The notes beneath the pieces are model-generated. The model saw only the letters and a program-made list of their open reading frames with translations. It was not told where the DNA came from and did not search any database. Shown here piece by piece: positions 30,613 through 37,899 of a stretch of 64,000 nt of DNA. The stretch lies in NCBI GenBank assembly GCA_032595685.2, contig CP159373.1:4627821-4691820 (forward strand), in the 5' to 3' direction. The position numbers and the translations under genes were made by a program. Position 1 is the stretch's first letter; each line of letters opens with the position of its first letter. The DNA is from Candidatus Electrothrix aestuarii (GTDB lineage: Bacteria; Desulfobacterota; Desulfobulbia; Desulfobulbales; Desulfobulbaceae).

Positions 30613-31001
30613 GCTTTTCGTAATTCATGAACTACAAATAGTGACTACACAAACATTACTTTTCATAGTAATACCCGATCCTAAAAGATAAGCAAGTCTT
30701 TTTTTTCATAACCCCCCAAAAAAATTTTTGTTAATATGAATAAAAGAGGTCTTTTTTAAAAAAAAAAAATAACTTTTTTCCTTCTCTCTCAATGAAAAAA
30801 CTGTACCACAGAACGATCCTTAGCCCCTCTGGAATTATGCTTTGCTTCTTTCATTTTCATAGCCAGCCAGCGATATATTCATGTTCCGTTAAGGCAGCTT
30901 TTGGTACGGTGCCAGATAATACTGTTTGCCCCCGGGTGTCTCCAGCTACGAAAAGGAGAGCTTCAACGGCATACAAAAACTCAGGAATCGAGGCCAACGA
31001 T
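30613..31001. other. AT-rich intergenic region
   Basis: Holds the proposed csp leader promoter and long A/T homopolymer runs near 30715-30780. A plus-strand frame extends from 30792 to the membrane-protein start at 31002, but its first 70 codons lack an SD and hydrophobic character, so I leave them out. Confidence 0.45.
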
Positions 31002-31358
31002 ATGAAAGTACTAACAAAACAAGTTATTGACATAGGATTACTCGTCCTGACCAGCCTCACCACCTCTACCCTTATCATGCATTTCGGCCTTATCTCTTCC
31101 AGGTTTAGCCTTCCCCCAATTATTATCGCAGCACTCACAGGAGGATTTCTCAGTAGCTGCTTGGTAAGTTGTTTCTGCAGGAAGGAGTTTTCCTTACACG
31201 CTTCATGGCACATGCTTTTAACCGGAACAATGACAGCATTTATTCCGATTCTTTTCATAGTCTGTGCTATGAGCCTGCACGATGCGCTTCCTCAAGACTC
31301 TTGTTTAAACAAATTACTTGAGCGATATGATGATAAGATCAGCCCGCTTCACGAATAA
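31002..31358 (+). CDS. small membrane protein, unknown
   Basis: 118 residues from the ATG at 31002 (GAGG 8 bases upstream). Three predicted membrane helices: about 8-28, 35-58 and 75-97. Four Cys lie near the second helix end (SSCLVSCFC). I do not recognise the family. An alternative start at 30792 would add 70 poorly conserved-looking residues. A clear terminator follows, which supports a real transcript. Confidence 0.6.
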   Translation: MKVLTKQVIDIGLLVLTSLTTSTLIMHFGLISSRFSLPPIIIAALTGGFLSSCLVSCFCRKEFSLHASWHMLLTGTMTAFIPILFIVCAMSLHDALPQDSCLNKLLERYDDKISPLHE

Positions 31359-31447: not shown

Positions 31448-31693
31448 TTATGCGGTTCGTTTAAAGAAGATAATAATACCGGTTATAGTCACCGTGAGCA
31501 GACCCAGCCCTCCGATTATACCGATATAGGGAGCGATGATTTCCCATGTGTGAATAGACTCTATAACCTTCTTTACCTCCTTGCTATAAATCCCTGTTTT
31601 TCTAAACAGCATAGTACTGCCAGAGAGAGCAAACAGGATAAGGAACGGGGAAAAGGTGATAGCGGTCAAACGATGCAACTTCCTGATTTTCAT
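31448..31693 (-). CDS. PepSY-type small membrane protein
   Basis: 81 residues from the ATG at 31693, after AAAGGAG. Two membrane helices: about 8-28 (RLTAITFSPFLILFALSGSTMLF) and 52-75. The opening KIRKLHRLTAI and the spacing fit PepSY-associated transmembrane proteins, here without the PepSY domain itself. It follows the histidine kinase gene on the same strand by 77 bases, so it may belong to the two-component operon or its regulon. Confidence 0.6.
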   Translation of the reverse strand: MKIRKLHRLTAITFSPFLILFALSGSTMLFRKTGIYSKEVKKVIESIHTWEIIAPYIGIIGGLGLLTVTITGIIIFFKRTA

Positions 31694-31770: not shown

Positions 31771-33234
31771 TCAATATGTTTTTTGTTTTTCTGCACCCAG
31801 ATGATCAAACTTCTGCCCAGGTCTCTGCTCGGATGCGTACAGAGGCAGGCTTATGGTGAAACAGACCCCTCCGGTTTCTACATTGCGAACCTGGATATCG
31901 CCCTGATGCCCCAGAACGATTGCCCTGGTAATACTTAAACCAAGCCCAGTCCCTTTAATCGTTTGTACGTTTTCTGAGCGATAGAATTTCTGAAAAACCT
32001 GTTCAAGCTCCTCTTCAGGAATACCTATGCCGGTATCCTCAATACTGAGCATGACCTGCTTTCCCTCTCCCTGAAGCTGTAGAAGGACAGATATAGAGCC
32101 CTCCGGGCGATTATAGTACACCGCGTTTTCAAGCAGGTTGGACAACGCCTCTGTCAGGGCCTCCTTATCTCCCAGGACCGTAACCTCTGCCTCCTCTTCG
32201 CGACGGATCCCTACCTGGTGTTCCTTAGCCAGAGGAGCAACAAGCCGCACCGCATTATCAAGGCAATGATTAATGGTAATCGGCTGAAAGCTAGTGGACA
32301 ATATCCCCGCATCAAGCCGGGCCAGGGTCAGCATACCATTCACCTGCCGTAGCATGGTGTCTGAAACAGTCTTAACCTCTCGCAGACTCTCGGCATATTC
32401 CTCCACTGACCGCTCCTTCATCAGGGTTATATCACATTCTGCCCGAATAACGGCCAGCGGCGTTTTGAGCTCATGGGCAGCATTGGCGATCAGCTCTTTT
32501 TCCGCCTCAAAGGCGGTTTGCAGACGCTCCAGCAGGGAATTAAAACGTTCAGCAAAAATATGCAGCTCACTGGCAAATCCGTTAGGCCCGATCCGCTCGT
32601 TCAGGTTTTTGTGGGTTATCTGCTCCAGGGCATCACCGAAGGTAGTTAAGGGACGCAGGGCATGTGATGATACAAAGTACCCGACAACGCCAGTCAGAAA
32701 AAAGAAAAATGGTGTAAGCACGCAAAAAAAACGTTCCACGCTGGAAAGCATGTTCAGGGTTTCAACCAGGGACTCCGCAATCCGCACAGAAACCACCTTC
32801 CCCTTGATGTCAAAATCATTTCTCAGAACAAGCAAGGGTTCATTATTGGGGCCGCTTGTTCGGTACACCCACTCCCCAGCTTCCTCATTATGGGATTCCG
32901 GTCTATCAGATATCAGATTGAACTGGCGAGGTTGCAGCGAGGGCGAGCTCATGTACAGCTCATCCTGGATAAAAACCTGATAATAATGACCTGAATTGGG
33001 CAAGGAGTATTCTCCTCGGGCAACTTCAGCAAGTTCGACCTCAACATAATCCCCATGCGCATGGATGAGCCCCTTCATGAGCTGCAACTTGGAGTGCAGT
33101 ATATTATCAATCGACTGAAAAGCACCCTCCTGAACCCTATGCAGCAGGACAAAATCAAGCAGGAGAACCATGCATGAACCTGCAAGAAAAATCCAGAGCA
33201 GCAACCTCCCCCGTATTGAACCACTCAGACTCAC
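31771..33234 (-). CDS. sensor histidine kinase
   Basis: 487 residues. Membrane helices at about 9-28 and 167-188 enclose a periplasmic sensor region of about 140 residues. A HAMP segment follows (SSHALRPLTTFGDALEQI), then HisKA with NAAHELKTPLAVIRAE (phospho-acceptor His near 255), then HATPase_c with the N box LLENAVYYN, G1 DTGIGIP, F box FQKFYR and G2 GTGLGLSI. It autophosphorylates and passes the phosphate to the response regulator two bases upstream. The signal is unknown; the adjacent secreted low-complexity proteins are likely targets. Confidence 0.93.
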   Translation of the reverse strand: MSLSGSIRGRLLLWIFLAGSCMVLLLDFVLLHRVQEGAFQSIDNILHSKLQLMKGLIHAHGDYVEVELAEVARGEYSLPNSGHYYQVFIQDELYMSSPSLQPRQFNLISDRPESHNEEAGEWVYRTSGPNNEPLLVLRNDFDIKGKVVSVRIAESLVETLNMLSSVERFFCVLTPFFFFLTGVVGYFVSSHALRPLTTFGDALEQITHKNLNERIGPNGFASELHIFAERFNSLLERLQTAFEAEKELIANAAHELKTPLAVIRAECDITLMKERSVEEYAESLREVKTVSDTMLRQVNGMLTLARLDAGILSTSFQPITINHCLDNAVRLVAPLAKEHQVGIRREEEAEVTVLGDKEALTEALSNLLENAVYYNRPEGSISVLLQLQGEGKQVMLSIEDTGIGIPEEELEQVFQKFYRSENVQTIKGTGLGLSITRAIVLGHQGDIQVRNVETGGVCFTISLPLYASEQRPGQKFDHLGAEKQKTY

Positions 33235-33236
33235 TC

Positions 33237-33911
33237 CTACTCCTCCTTTGGAATATAATACCCTACGCCCCGCTTGGTCAGGATTAACTTCTGCTCAAAA
33301 CCCTTATCCACCTTGTTGCGGAGCTTATTGATGTAGACATCGATAATATTGCTGTCCAGATCAAAGTCCCCGTCATAGACATGCTCGGAAAACTCGGTCC
33401 TGCTGATAACCCGGCCCTTATTCAGCACCAGATATTCCAGCACCGCATATTCCTTAGCAGAAAGCGTTATTTCCTTTCCAGCTCTGGAGGCTGTTTTGGC
33501 ATTCAGATCAAGGCAAAGATCCGCCACCTGCACAGTGGAAGCGGGCTGGCCCTTATTTCTTCTGATGACTGCGGTTAATCGGGCCAGGAGCTCGGCAAAA
33601 TCAAAGGGTTTAGGGATATAATCATCCGCCCCCCGATTAAGCCCCTTCACCCGACTCTCCACCTCGGAGCGGGCCGTGAGCATGAGCACAGGCACATCAA
33701 TCCCCTGCGTGCGCAAGGTCTCAAGCACTGTAAAGCCATCCATTTTTGGCAGCATGACATCAAGCAGCACTGCGTCATAAGGGTAGGTCTCAGCCATATA
33801 CAATCCCTCTTCGCCGTCAAAACAGAGGTCAACCGCATAGGCATGCTCTTCAAGCCCTTTTTTCAACAGTGTTGCCAGTCGCTTTTCATCCTCAACAATA
33901 AGAACTTTCAT
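33237..33911 (-). CDS. OmpR/PhoB-family response regulator
   Basis: 224 residues. Receiver domain 1-115 with DEKR acidic pocket, LLDVMLPKMDG phospho-acceptor Asp near 51 and the KPF lysine near 101; winged-helix DNA-binding domain about 127-224 (LSAKEYAVLEYLVLNKGRVISRTEF, ILTKRGVGYYI). It precedes the kinase gene by two bases. Direct repeats with an 11-bp period upstream of three neighbouring genes fit the tandem half-sites of this family and are candidate operators. Confidence 0.95.
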   Translation of the reverse strand: MKVLIVEDEKRLATLLKKGLEEHAYAVDLCFDGEEGLYMAETYPYDAVLLDVMLPKMDGFTVLETLRTQGIDVPVLMLTARSEVESRVKGLNRGADDYIPKPFDFAELLARLTAVIRRNKGQPASTVQVADLCLDLNAKTASRAGKEITLSAKEYAVLEYLVLNKGRVISRTEFSEHVYDGDFDLDSNIIDVYINKLRNKVDKGFEQKLILTKRGVGYYIPKEE

Positions 33912-33994: not shown

Positions 33995-34303
33995 CTAATC
34001 CCGGTCTTCTCCCCGTTCCCGGTACTCACCACGCTCACCTTCGCGTTCGTAGCGTTCTCCACGCTCATAGCGATCATCATCCCGATCATCTCTCCGCTCA
34101 TAGCGTTCTTCACGACGCTCTTCATGACGGTCATCATCGCGCTCATAGCGTTCACCGCGTTCCTCGTAACGCTCATTTTCCCGTTCGTAGCGTTCTCCAC
34201 GCTCGTAACGGTCATCATCTCTATCACCACTTGCCATTCCTGCGCCAGCAAAAGTGACTACCAAAAACAGAGCTCCGAACAATGCGCTCATACCCTTTTT
34301 CAT
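33995..34303 (-). CDS. secreted Arg/Glu/Tyr/Asp repeat protein
   Basis: 102 residues from the ATG at 34303 (GGAAGGAG upstream). Residues 1-26 are a signal peptide (MKKGMSALFGALFLVV...GMASG). The mature 75 residues consist almost only of Arg, Glu, Asp, Tyr and Gly, with motifs such as RYERGERYE and DRDDDRYER, and two copies of DRDDDRYERGERYERE. It should be highly charged and disordered, or a long single helix, and could bind metal ions or polyanions in the periplasm. It lies 83 bases upstream of the response-regulator gene on the same strand. No family recognised. The function is not known. Confidence 0.8.
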   Translation of the reverse strand: MKKGMSALFGALFLVVTFAGAGMASGDRDDDRYERGERYERENERYEERGERYERDDDRHEERREERYERRDDRDDDRYERGERYEREGERGEYRERGEDRD

Positions 34304-34385
34304 GACATTTCTCCTTCCCTTTGCGTCTGTGTCGTTCAGCAATATTGCTGTCTATCATCCTTACTTTCACAGTACCAAAGGGAAT

Positions 34386-34401
34386 ATGAACAGAAGATGA
34401 A
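34386..34401 (-). promoter_or_regulatory. candidate response-regulator site
   Basis: On the minus strand two TTCAT half-sites with an 11-base period (TTCATCTTCTGTTCAT), about 80 bases upstream of the charged-repeat protein start. The same core CATCTTCTGTTCAT occurs at 35198-35211. Confidence 0.5.
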
Positions 34402-34481
34402 GGGGTATATCTTTTTTTGCAGGGAAATTTTGTTGCCACCGGATACCAGAGACAAAGGGCATTCTCTGCCAGTAGCCTTAT

Positions 34482-34519
34482 TTAATGTTCCGGTAATGTT
34501 CTGTTCATCTTGTATTAAC
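34482..34519 (+). promoter_or_regulatory. candidate response-regulator site
   Basis: Four half-sites with an 11-base period: TTAAT (34482), GTAAT (34493), TTCAT (34504), TTAAC (34515). It lies upstream of the Cys-rich protein gene at 34632. Confidence 0.45.
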
Positions 34520-34631
34520 CTGTTACTTGTTACCGTACAATTTAAGAGATAACAAGAAAGGATGGCAAGCAACTCCCTTTATTCCCCTTATTCAATCTAT
34601 TCAATCTATTCAATCCATAGGAGCCAGTACA

Positions 34632-34886
34632 ATGCGCAGAAAACAACAGCATCTCCGGCCTGTAAACAGCAAGGAATACGACTGTCCCCTGACCAAAAAG
34701 CACGTATTTGTTCAGCTTAATGGAAACAGGCATACTGTTCACCGCGAGCCTGTGGTCTGCTCAAACATCGGTCAATGCGGCTGCAATGTTGTCGAGCTTA
34801 TCTACGGCATGAGCTACATTGTGGATTGGAATAAGTGCTGCCTTTATTCGCTCATCAAGGGACAGGACTGTGGCCGGGAAAATTAA
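34632..34886 (+). CDS. small cysteine-rich protein
   Basis: 84 residues from the ATG at 34632 after TAGGAG; the frame is open further upstream through a TATTCAATC tandem repeat (34589-34615) that is unlikely to be coded. Seven Cys occur (YDCPLT, VVCSN, GQCGC, KCC, QDC), in an arrangement that could bind a metal or form disulphides. There is no signal peptide. No family recognised. It sits between two candidate operators of the OmpR-type regulator. Confidence 0.6.
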   Translation: MRRKQQHLRPVNSKEYDCPLTKKHVFVQLNGNRHTVHREPVVCSNIGQCGCNVVELIYGMSYIVDWNKCCLYSLIKGQDCGREN

Positions 34887-35300
34887 GTAGACCGGGTGCC
34901 TCGTCCCTTCTGATAAACTTTCTGATATATATAGCCGATGGAACGGATCAGGCAAGATCCATTTTATCTTCAGCGTGTTCTTTGCGGCGGTTGCACCTCC
35001 CTATCCTGTCAGCCGCCGCTCTTTTTCCTTCCGGCAGTATCATCTTTTCTAACAGACCGGTAAAGCCCCTCTGCCCTCCCTTTACCATCTCTCTTATCCC
35101 CAGTGCTCACAGACTCATCCCCTCCCTATCTCCCCAGAAGTGAGTACTTTTTCCACAGCATTTTTTCAGAATAAAAAGCCTTATTTCATGTTCCACTCAT
35201 CTTCTGTTCATCCTCCATTAATCCCGCATGAGCTATTGTAAGGCATAACAAAAATAAAAAGGAGGATTCCCCCCTTACCTTAAACATAGGAGCAAGCAAA
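34887..35300. other. intergenic region with regulatory repeats
   Basis: No gene with a credible start. Holds the tandem half-sites at 35185-35222 and the AAGGAGG-like leader before 35301. Confidence 0.5.
35185..35222 (+). promoter_or_regulatory. candidate response-regulator site
   Basis: Four half-sites with an 11-base period: TTCAT (35185), CTCAT (35196), TTCAT (35207), TTAAT (35218). It lies about 80 bases upstream of the secreted protein gene at 35301. Confidence 0.5.
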
Positions 35301-35957
35301 ATGAAGAACATGAAGAACATGAAGAACAACACAGGACGTCTTTTTGTAACAGCAGTATTAACCGTTATCTTTCTTACAGGTTCTGCAAGAGCAGCAGACT
35401 TCGGCTCAGAGACACAAAACCTGATGACAGAGACCATTACCAGAGCGCTTGAAGCAAACATCAACAATATGGCGAACAATGCGACAGCAGGGAATGTGTC
35501 CAGTCAACCAGTGCTCCAAGAAATACAGAACCGGATGATGACCCAAATAAGTGGTGCTATCAAAGAGAACACCGCTGTAAGAAAGCGGGAAACTGTCGTT
35601 GCAACCTGTTTGGAATGTCGGGCCTTGCAGCCCATAGAGGTGGTTGTTTCCGGGGAGAGCCCCTTCCTTGACGCAGATATCCAGGAGCGTATCAACCAGG
35701 CAATGGCGAAGAGGATTGAAGAAACCATTCGGGTGATATCTTCCGACCCAGCAGTGGCAAGTATGGTGCAGGAAAGGATGATGGCACAGCGGATGGCTAC
35801 CAGCCCGCTTCAGCAGGATATGCAGCCTTTCATCATGAGCGGCTTACTCTCTGATCCAGGGGCGATCAATGTGGCCAACAACACTACCGAGGGCGCAAAC
35901 AATCCATTGACTAAGGCAACGTGCTCCACCACTGACAGCAGATATCCGAACTGCTGA
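35301..35957 (+). CDS. secreted helical protein, unknown
   Basis: 218 residues. Start at 35301 after TAGGAGC; the first codons repeat AAG AAC ATG three times, so the exact start among 35301, 35310 and 35319 is open. Signal peptide to about residue 32 (LFVTAVLTVIFLTGSARAA). The mature part is helical with Met-rich stretches (NRMMTQISGAI, ERMMAQRMA) and one Cys pair (ATCLECRA) plus two Cys near the end. It resembles in style the disrupted gene at 36128. No known family. It probably belongs to the regulon of the nearby two-component system. Confidence 0.65.
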   Translation: MKNMKNMKNNTGRLFVTAVLTVIFLTGSARAADFGSETQNLMTETITRALEANINNMANNATAGNVSSQPVLQEIQNRMMTQISGAIKENTAVRKRETVVATCLECRALQPIEVVVSGESPFLDADIQERINQAMAKRIEETIRVISSDPAVASMVQERMMAQRMATSPLQQDMQPFIMSGLLSDPGAINVANNTTEGANNPLTKATCSTTDSRYPNC

Positions 35958-36087: not shown

Positions 36088-36241
36088 TATTATTCCACAG
36101 AATTATCCCTTAAACAGAGGAAGAAAGATGAAAAACTTAATGCTCAAACTGTGTGTCGTACTGACAGCCGCAGCAATATTCTCCAGCCCTGCCGCAGCCG
36201 CAGCACAGATAAACACTGCGAGCATTCAGGCAAAGGTTGAT

Positions 36242-37680
36242 CAGTAATTTTAAATTTTAATATTATCAGGTCGATAGATTTTTAATTTCAAGCTGTTTAA
36301 ACATAAAGTCTATCAGCTGAGACCAACTGTTAAAAAATAAATATCTGGTTAATGCTTTCAGGTCATTAAAAAAGGTCTTTCGGACAGACAAGACCGATCT
36401 GACGGCTTTGTATTTTGTATCAACAAGCTCCAGGAATGTGTGAGCTAAAAATGCGACCAGATTGAGAGTCAGTAAGGTGTTCGAGAGAAATTTATTGCCA
36501 TGCCCGAAATTATGCTCTAAATGGTAGCCTTTTGTTTTCAGGATATTATTATTTTCATTTTCCACCTTCCATCGAGTTCTTCCGGCTTGTACTATAGATT
36601 GAACATTGGTTCTGTCTATTTTAAAATCAGTGATAAAAGAATTTTTATACAGAACCTCTTGTGTTTTGGTGTTAATGACGGTCAACTCAACCCAATTGAC
36701 AGAAGGAGCGTCATCCCCCTGCTTGAGGGGTAAGTCATTAGCATAACGATAAGTATGAAGCTCGTGAAATTTTCCGTTCCATTTTCTTTGAGAACTTACT
36801 GTAATACCATCTTTCTTTTCAAGTTCGGCAACATACTGATAAAGGGTCGTATGTGAGGAGGGTTTGCAAATCAGGATAAAACGAAAACTGTGTGCCGATA
36901 ATAAGTTGCAAAACGGCCCTCTGGAAAACAAATCGTCTCCCAGGATGATAACTTTTCGAGCCGATAAAGAAGAGTTCCGTTCAATCCAGCGCTTAGCAGC
37001 ATTCAACTCGCAATCCTGTTTTGCTGAACCATCCTGAGGGGTGACGAATTCTGGTTCCAGAGCGATGACCTTGTTGTTGTCCGGTGCAGCTACCACCGGG
37101 GTAAGAACCTTATGGGAATAACTTACCGTTCCGTTGGAGTTACGAGCAACGGAACAGTTTTCACAATGTATTTTGGAGGAACGAAAAAATTCTGTACCAT
37201 CTATCGGAACCAACAAATATTCATCCAGCACTCTATAACGATCCAAGTGTCCAGCACTTTCAAGCCGATCAAAAGTTTCTGAAAAAATTGGATAAAAATT
37301 ATCAGAAGTAAGGGTGTCAAGAAGATTGCGGGTCTGATTGTCCGACATGATCTGTGTTATTCCGAACAAACTTTGAGCATTATTATGCCCGTGAGCCTGC
37401 TGCATTGCCCGCTGATGAGATAAGAATGATGGGGATTGGTTGAAAAACATGGAAAACGCACCTAACGCCGCATCCTTCATTGAATATGTGAGGTTTGGGC
37501 TGAATTTCCGGTAATCCGGGAGTTCATCAAATATGCTATGGATCTGATTGACAAACGTATCGAATGTTAATTCTTTGGTATTTGAAGGCATAAGCAGAGG
37601 ACTCGTGTGATATTGATCATGCCTTTCAATAACACATATTCGTTAAATAAAATAGTACGTTGTCAAATTTATAATTGCTG
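36242..37680 (-). mobile_element. IS4-like insertion sequence
   Basis: 1439 bp. Terminal inverted repeats CAGTAATTTTAAATTT (36242-36257) and, reversed, CAGCAATTATAAATTT (37665-37680) with two mismatches. A 9-bp target duplication AAGGTTGAT flanks it (36233-36241, 37681-37689). One transposase gene on the minus strand. Confidence 0.92.
36266..37591 (-). CDS. DDE transposase, IS4-like
   Basis: 441 residues. Acidic residues of a DDE nuclease are suggested by VPIDGTEFF, IILGDDLF and the C-terminal RTRWKVENENNNILKTKGYHLEH, which resembles the R-E-K part of the IS4 signature, with seven rather than six residues between E and K. A small Cys pair (CENC) lies after the first Asp. It catalyses cut-and-paste movement of the element. 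The reading frame is intact, so the element may be active. The exact IS subfamily cannot be named without a database search. Confidence 0.85.
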   Translation of the reverse strand: MPSNTKELTFDTFVNQIHSIFDELPDYRKFSPNLTYSMKDAALGAFSMFFNQSPSFLSHQRAMQQAHGHNNAQSLFGITQIMSDNQTRNLLDTLTSDNFYPIFSETFDRLESAGHLDRYRVLDEYLLVPIDGTEFFRSSKIHCENCSVARNSNGTVSYSHKVLTPVVAAPDNNKVIALEPEFVTPQDGSAKQDCELNAAKRWIERNSSLSARKVIILGDDLFSRGPFCNLLSAHSFRFILICKPSSHTTLYQYVAELEKKDGITVSSQRKWNGKFHELHTYRYANDLPLKQGDDAPSVNWVELTVINTKTQEVLYKNSFITDFKIDRTNVQSIVQAGRTRWKVENENNNILKTKGYHLEHNFGHGNKFLSNTLLTLNLVAFLAHTFLELVDTKYKAVRSVLSVRKTFFNDLKALTRYLFFNSWSQLIDFMFKQLEIKNLST

Positions 37681-37899
37681 AAGGTTGATGAATTAATCAC
37701 CAAGATGCAGCAGGAAACAATCAAGAAAAATTTCGCAGCCAGGATACTGCAAAACGAAATGCGTGCCAAGATGATGGCCGAGCGTGTTCCGCAAAAATTT
37801 ATGCAAACCGACATTCTGCCTATTGTCCAACCGGCTATGATAGAAAAGGTACGGAAGCTGATGCAGGCGCAAATGATGGAGACCTTAAAAGTCCGTTAG

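Follow-up and report, generated by a model that had tools for sequence, protein, structure and literature searches.

The 64-kb window of the cable bacterium Candidatus Electrothrix aestuarii (the whole stretch of 64,000 nucleotides analysed here) carries short sequences repeated in steps of 11 bases in front of several small genes, close to the genes of a two-component system. Which regulator reads these repeats, and does its control extend beyond this locus? The initial annotation had described three arrays of TTCAT-like half-sites with an 11-base period and a shared core. The sequence and an array scan confirmed their coordinates and their exact 11-bp phasing, the half-sites being TTMAT-like, and TTCTGTTCAT is indeed common to arrays 1, 2, and 3. 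A fourth window site had been overlooked; it was found by a strict regular expression and by an unfiltered profile, for which the next best match in the window has E 0.8. Like all profile E-values in this work, those of the arrays rest on a short calibration.

34386..34401, minus strand: array 1, TTCAT-N6-TTCAT, two half-sites (window profile E 4e-10)
34482..34519, plus strand: array 2, four half-sites, TTAAT, GTAAT, TTCAT, and TTAAC, at 34482, 34493, 34504, and 34515 (E 4e-12)
35185..35222, plus strand: array 3, four half-sites, TTCAT, CTCAT, TTCAT, and TTAAT, at 35185, 35196, 35207, and 35218 (E 2e-12)
30878..30893, plus strand: array 4, TTCAT-N6-TTAAG, with an extra TTCAT at 30856-30860 (E 4e-9)

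Array 4 is weaker, having only one good upstream half-site; it also occurs in the genome G007 and was not seen before its gene in the other relatives. When 18 of 20 matches are required, four TTMAT half-sites at period 11 can be placed twice in the 64-kb window, precisely at arrays 2 and 3, and nowhere at periods 7-10 and 12-16. None of 40 first-order Markov simulations of the window gave a period-11 placement, and only 1 of 2,000 simulations of the 742 nt of local intergenic DNA yielded a four-TTMAT placement. These simulations, together with the reversed-profile control given below, rule out a chance origin of the arrays. Array 1, with its two half-sites, is too short for the four-half-site test and its support thus comes from conservation.

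Arrays 2 and 3 form one 45-nt repeat family (82% identity), each also pairs with array 1 in the repeat search, and their Shine-Dalgarno regions match as well (19 nt, 84%). Such a likeness could be that of a duplicated promoter segment devoid of present function. This is extremely improbable, because the half-sites and the -10-like element are kept while other letters change in the orthologs of G003, G004, and G006, and because the same core heads unrelated genes.

The genes around the arrays are the following.

31002..31358, plus strand: small hydrophobic protein of 118 aa behind array 4 (no Pfam match; start placed by comparison with relatives)
31448..31693, minus strand: PepSY_TM-like membrane protein of 81 aa, 3' of the kinase (E 4e-5, below the curated cut-off)
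31771..33234, minus strand: sensor histidine kinase (HisKA, HATPase_c; HAMP below cut-off)
33237..33911, minus strand: response regulator of the OmpR/PhoB type (Response_reg and Trans_reg_C)
33995..34303, minus strand: charged-repeat small protein, first gene of the regulator operon (start taken at MKKGMSALFG; signal-like N-terminus by eye)
34632..34886, plus strand: Cys-rich protein of 84 aa behind array 2
35301..35957, plus strand: Met-rich protein of 218 aa (6.4% Met) behind array 3 (signal-like N-terminus by eye)

The receiver and winged-helix domains of the regulator score above cut-off (PF00072, E 3.5e-29; PF00486, E 8.4e-24). The arrays precede the charged-repeat, Cys-rich, and Met-rich genes, as had been proposed, but this description was incomplete: array 1 also heads the operon of the regulator and its kinase, an arrangement that makes autoregulation likely. 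The sensor region of the kinase has an E-x-x-E at one place in all nine aligned kinases; those of G004, which is split, and G013 were left out of the alignment. The G004 kinase lies in two open frames (L139:8987-10431), by frameshift or assembly error. Downstream of the Met-rich gene, a second Met-rich gene is split by a transposase-like gene (window 36128-36247, 36266-37591, and 37675-37899); it is a 107-aa open frame in G003, G004, and G007.

Seven of the eight Electrothrix genomes, counting the present one, contain the regulator gene at 88-100% identity. It was not found in the eighth, G005, which is 69% complete. All seven carry TTCAT-N6-TTCAT upstream of the regulator or of its preceding small charged gene; these genomes are related, and G000 and G007 are near-duplicates (the G007 regulator is 99.6% identical to the present one). 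Four half-sites are kept before the Met-rich orthologs of G003, G004, G006, and G007 and before the Cys-rich orthologs of G003 and G007. Both proteins were found in the genus only when 57 genomes were searched at E≤0.001, the Met-rich one in 5 genomes and the Cys-rich one in 8. The homology search found no Met-rich gene in G001, where an array at L140:7754, whose fourth half-site is decayed and whose other three are good, lies without it near the 3' end of the PepSY-like gene. In G007 (L020, L025), the match to the Met-rich gene falls into two parts separated by some 1.5 kb, and an insertion has probably split this homolog.

The Cys-rich family is larger than its array-bearing members. The array is absent at 17 of the 20 homologs, and the copy in the window is therefore under its own control. 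Fifteen of these 17 carry another strongly conserved leader, which L036 and L045 do not have. This leader (loci L029-L044, e.g., L035:1330-1491; positions 1432882 and 688308 of the present genome) contains a dyad, AATGAGGC-N4-GCCTTATT, between CCC/GGG arms. It had no Rfam match in the four loci scanned and shows little covariation; it could be an RNA or a DNA element.

Is the regulon local, as had been claimed? We trained a profile (R1) on the four window sites and eleven from relatives. Applied to the single-contig genome of 5,110,699 bp, it gives nine sites with E≤0.01; the following match is at E 2.3. Four are those of the window and five lie far off, so that the claim of a local regulon does not hold. 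A second profile (R2) was built from 51 sites, all nine of these among them; it recovers these nine and no others at E≤0.0053, its next match being at E 1.5. A simpler search for three half-sites with one mismatch matched this genome 18 times and gave 4 matches with the backward control. Of the 18, arrays 2 and 3 overlap with three, the profile later recovered one more (763884), and 14 are others. The initial annotation would have been refuted by arrays as frequent at random sites, and this check did not refute it. Over the eight genus genomes, R1 has 47 matches at E≤0.01 (summed per-genome counts) and the reversed profile none (best 0.026). The distant sites and their targets are given below.

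476079: DUF4405 membrane protein
761574 and 762098: two small RYEYRG-repeat proteins with signal-like starts
763875: Monooxy_af470-like protein
3780918: DUF5666 protein, then genes of the NodT (outer membrane) and HlyD types, with no RND pump gene seen adjoining them

Relatives have similar targets: RYEYR-type proteins (by eye) in G001, G002, G003, G004, and G006, DUF4405 in G002 and G003, DUF5666 in G002, and an outer membrane efflux gene in G001. In other genera, the targets include DUF5666 proteins and Tyr-rich proteins (by eye); G013 has a cytochrome b561 between DUF5666 and the regulator, and one target in G016 is an outer membrane efflux gene whose best NCBIfam model, far below cut-off, is a divalent-metal exporter. 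We saw no convincing gene behind the sites G006:342259, G004:C96, and G026:C2. Just before the DUF4405 target, a gene without an array (L175:4786-5382) encodes a secreted-looking protein that matches Metal_resist and LTXXQ, the family of CpxP/Spy type, above cut-off. A further inverted repeat (TCTTAACA...TGTTAAGA-like) lies behind the sites L176:6871-6932, L184:5700-5761, L189:5712-5773, and L188:1729-1790, and is perhaps the operator of a second regulator.

The position of the half-sites relative to a -10-like element suggests how they could work. In the window, these elements are as follows.

34369..34374, minus strand: TACTGT, array 1, 16 nt from the start of the last half-site
34531..34536, plus strand: TACCGT, array 2
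35234..35239, plus strand: TATTGT, array 3
30905-30910, plus strand: TACGGT, array 4

A first set of sites was picked by orthology, before the -10 was noticed (upstream of the regulator in 7 genomes, of the Met-rich gene in 5, and of the Cys-rich gene in 3), and all its members fit TTCAT-N6-TTMA-N12-TAnnGT. A larger alignment started from the 60 R1 matches over 57 genomes. We dropped nine of the ten G007 matches (eight judged from place or score to be copies of sites of the present genome, and 2728301, which lies inside an ORF and looks like a repeat), G003:C4:117870 at a contig edge, and G016:C12:47309, which adjoins a better site. Two weaker matches were added (G001:C204, E 0.038; G006:3078493, E 0.044), and gapped profile matches were re-anchored by at most 6 bases on the half-sites. 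In the resulting 51 sites from 12 genomes, which are not independent proof of the geometry because the selecting profile held those columns, TAnnnT starts at a fixed place, 16 nt after the start of the last half-site, in 49 sites and one base closer in the other two (763875 of the present genome and the DUF5666 site of G002). A G stands two bases before TAnnnT in 48 of the 51. The core half-sites TT.AT and TT.A are kept without exception, columns T26, T27, A29, T30, T37, T38, and A40 being invariant. The promoter code is thus TTMAT-N6-TTMA-N12-TAnnnT, and the last half-site covers the -35 position because it starts 16 nt before the -10-like element. Judged from these sequences, the arrays are parts of promoters. 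Four half-sites are found at the Met-rich and Cys-rich promoters and at a few others.

The same geometry bears on the sign of the regulation. Repressors also act at the -35 region, and boxes lying over it, as the last half-site does, could block RNA polymerase. We judge repression very unlikely. A consensus scan of 34250-35350, a crude test, found no TTGACA/TATAAT pair at the three proposed promoters, and hence no sigma-70 hexamers that could work there without an activator; the one pair it found lies elsewhere in the stretch, where 1.8 are expected. Nearly all sites keep one spacing to the -10-like element, and BqsR promoters, which share this layout, are activated. As matches to TATAAT the proposed -10s are poor, which fits activator dependence, and their role rests on conservation.

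Near the targets, direct-repeat half-sites at one-turn spacing occur at period 11 only. The best reading of the arrays is that they are tandem sites of an OmpR/PhoB-family regulator, as the initial annotation had proposed; conservation, phasing, geometry, linkage, and co-occurrence all argue for sites of this kind, and only the scope given to them was too narrow. Which member of the family would bind them? An ortholog of the neighbouring regulator at least 73% identical is present in 11 of the 57 genomes (the seven of the genus, G013, G016, G026, and G034). R1 sites at E≤0.01 occur in 12, namely these 11 and G005. The other 45, including 18 that have only a relative of the regulator at 42-65% identity (E≤1e-50), have no R1 site at this threshold; this means no strong site, because the 57-genome run used stricter filters that lose weak matches. 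The co-occurrence of ortholog and site has a Fisher p of 6.5e-11 over the 57 genomes, a value that takes no account of relatedness. The regulator gene has at least one site within 4 kb in each of G013, G016, G026, and G034, and all nine aligned regulators share one recognition region, FDLDSNIIDV[YF]IN.

Another OmpR-family regulator could nevertheless bind the arrays, the neighbouring one being merely one of its targets. The genome encodes other regulators of this type, such as a 45% identical one at 2877055, and a target gene of a different regulator would likewise carry and adjoin a site. This is quite unlikely given that the sites track the ortholog in every genome that has it, are not found (threshold E≤0.01) in the 18 genomes whose only relatives of the regulator are distant, and lie upstream of the regulator or close to it in all 11. 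R1 was run on 26 of the 80 named loci, which lie around more distant relatives of the regulator, and gave no match there up to E 5; we therefore do not claim the motif beyond close orthologs. The regular expression has a single match among the 80 named loci (870,849 bases), in L113 (Cohnella), which we took as chance. The arrays are very probably, on these comparisons of sequences, activator boxes of the neighbouring two-component system and belong to a genome-wide regulon, with binding by its regulator being putative.

Direct-repeat half-sites with an 11-bp period are known for PmrA/BasR and QseB, which are OmpR/PhoB-type regulators like the present one. The latter scores far below the corresponding NCBIfam cut-offs (PmrA, 184.5 vs 330; QseB, 179.8 vs 345), and phmmer matched it to DrrD (1kgs, 3.5e-72), the mycobacterial PhoP (8e-48), and BasR (6e-34). 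Its best NCBIfam match is TIGR01387, of the heavy-metal regulators CusR/CopR/CzcR, at 251 bits, below the cut-off of 279.2. The partner family TIGR01386 is the best match of the kinase, also below cut-off (210 vs 292.55). Efflux-type targets are found here too (the NodT/HlyD genes and the outer membrane efflux gene of G016), but the known CusR box is palindromic, whereas the cable-bacterium repeat is direct.

The closest layout is that of BqsR/BqsS (CarR/CarS), the Fe(II)-responsive system of Pseudomonas aeruginosa, where the last half-site also lies over the -35. In the accessible text of PMC4682146, BqsR is an activator whose promoters have clusters of repeated pentamers separated by 6 bp. 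Four stand in the native PA14_04180 promoter; the fourth overlaps the -35, the third and fourth are critical, and the first and second are additive (PMC4682146, same text). The spacing of the BqsR pentamers, TTAAG-N6-TTAAG, agrees with the arrays, but the letters do not. Because the half-site letters here are TTMAT, we do not file the system as BqsR and say only that it would work alike; its targets differ as well. The BqsS kinase carries a periplasmic ExxE, according to the accessible part of PMC12666569. The E-x-x-E of the nine kinases aligned here is a putative counterpart of it.

We propose the following mechanism. The phosphorylated regulator would bind as a dimer to two direct-repeat half-sites (TTMAT, in 11-bp steps), the second of which would stand in for the -35 element, with an extended -10 (G-N-TAnnnT) downstream. 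From these boxes, the regulator would recruit RNA polymerase, as in class II activation. Two half-sites would constitute the basic promoter, used by the regulator's own operon, with positive feedback, and by most distant targets. The four half-sites of the Cys-rich and Met-rich genes would add a second dimer and give a higher output. The resulting regulon would produce small envelope and secreted proteins together with efflux proteins, products that by analogy would be those of cation- or envelope-stress regulons. The sequences themselves show the geometry, conservation, and specificity of the sites, their linkage to the regulator, and their co-occurrence with it; we infer that the regulator binds, that it activates rather than represses, and that the outer half-sites are additive.

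The signal may be a metal or another cation, a tentative suggestion that is the weakest part of the proposal and that we hold to be somewhat doubtful. The sub-threshold matches to heavy-metal families, the ExxE of the kinase, the efflux genes, and the Metal_resist/LTXXQ gene hint at it; that no function of the DUF target families was found in the literature counts against it, as do the regulator and kinase scores, which fall short of the heavy-metal cut-offs. Going further, the system could control an envelope programme of cable bacteria, in which the sensing of metals or cations leads to small proteins rich in Tyr/Arg/Asp, Cys, or Met that form a coat about the periplasm with its nickel-based conductive fibres, coupling metal or redox conditions of the sediment to the state of the conducting envelope. 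This is a speculative and rather unlikely scenario.

The promoter system is of a known kind, and the regulon is new as far as we searched: the open-access literature, which leaves subscription papers outside the search, gave no paper on a response-regulator regulon in cable bacteria, and the term 'two-component' is absent from the main text of the open cable-bacteria papers searched. Cable bacteria are described as unculturable in the accessible part of PMC10926707. The natural two- and four-box promoters could be used for additivity tests. The promoter code names nine target units and would place lineage-limited proteins of unknown function under shared control, which makes the function of these proteins testable by expression.
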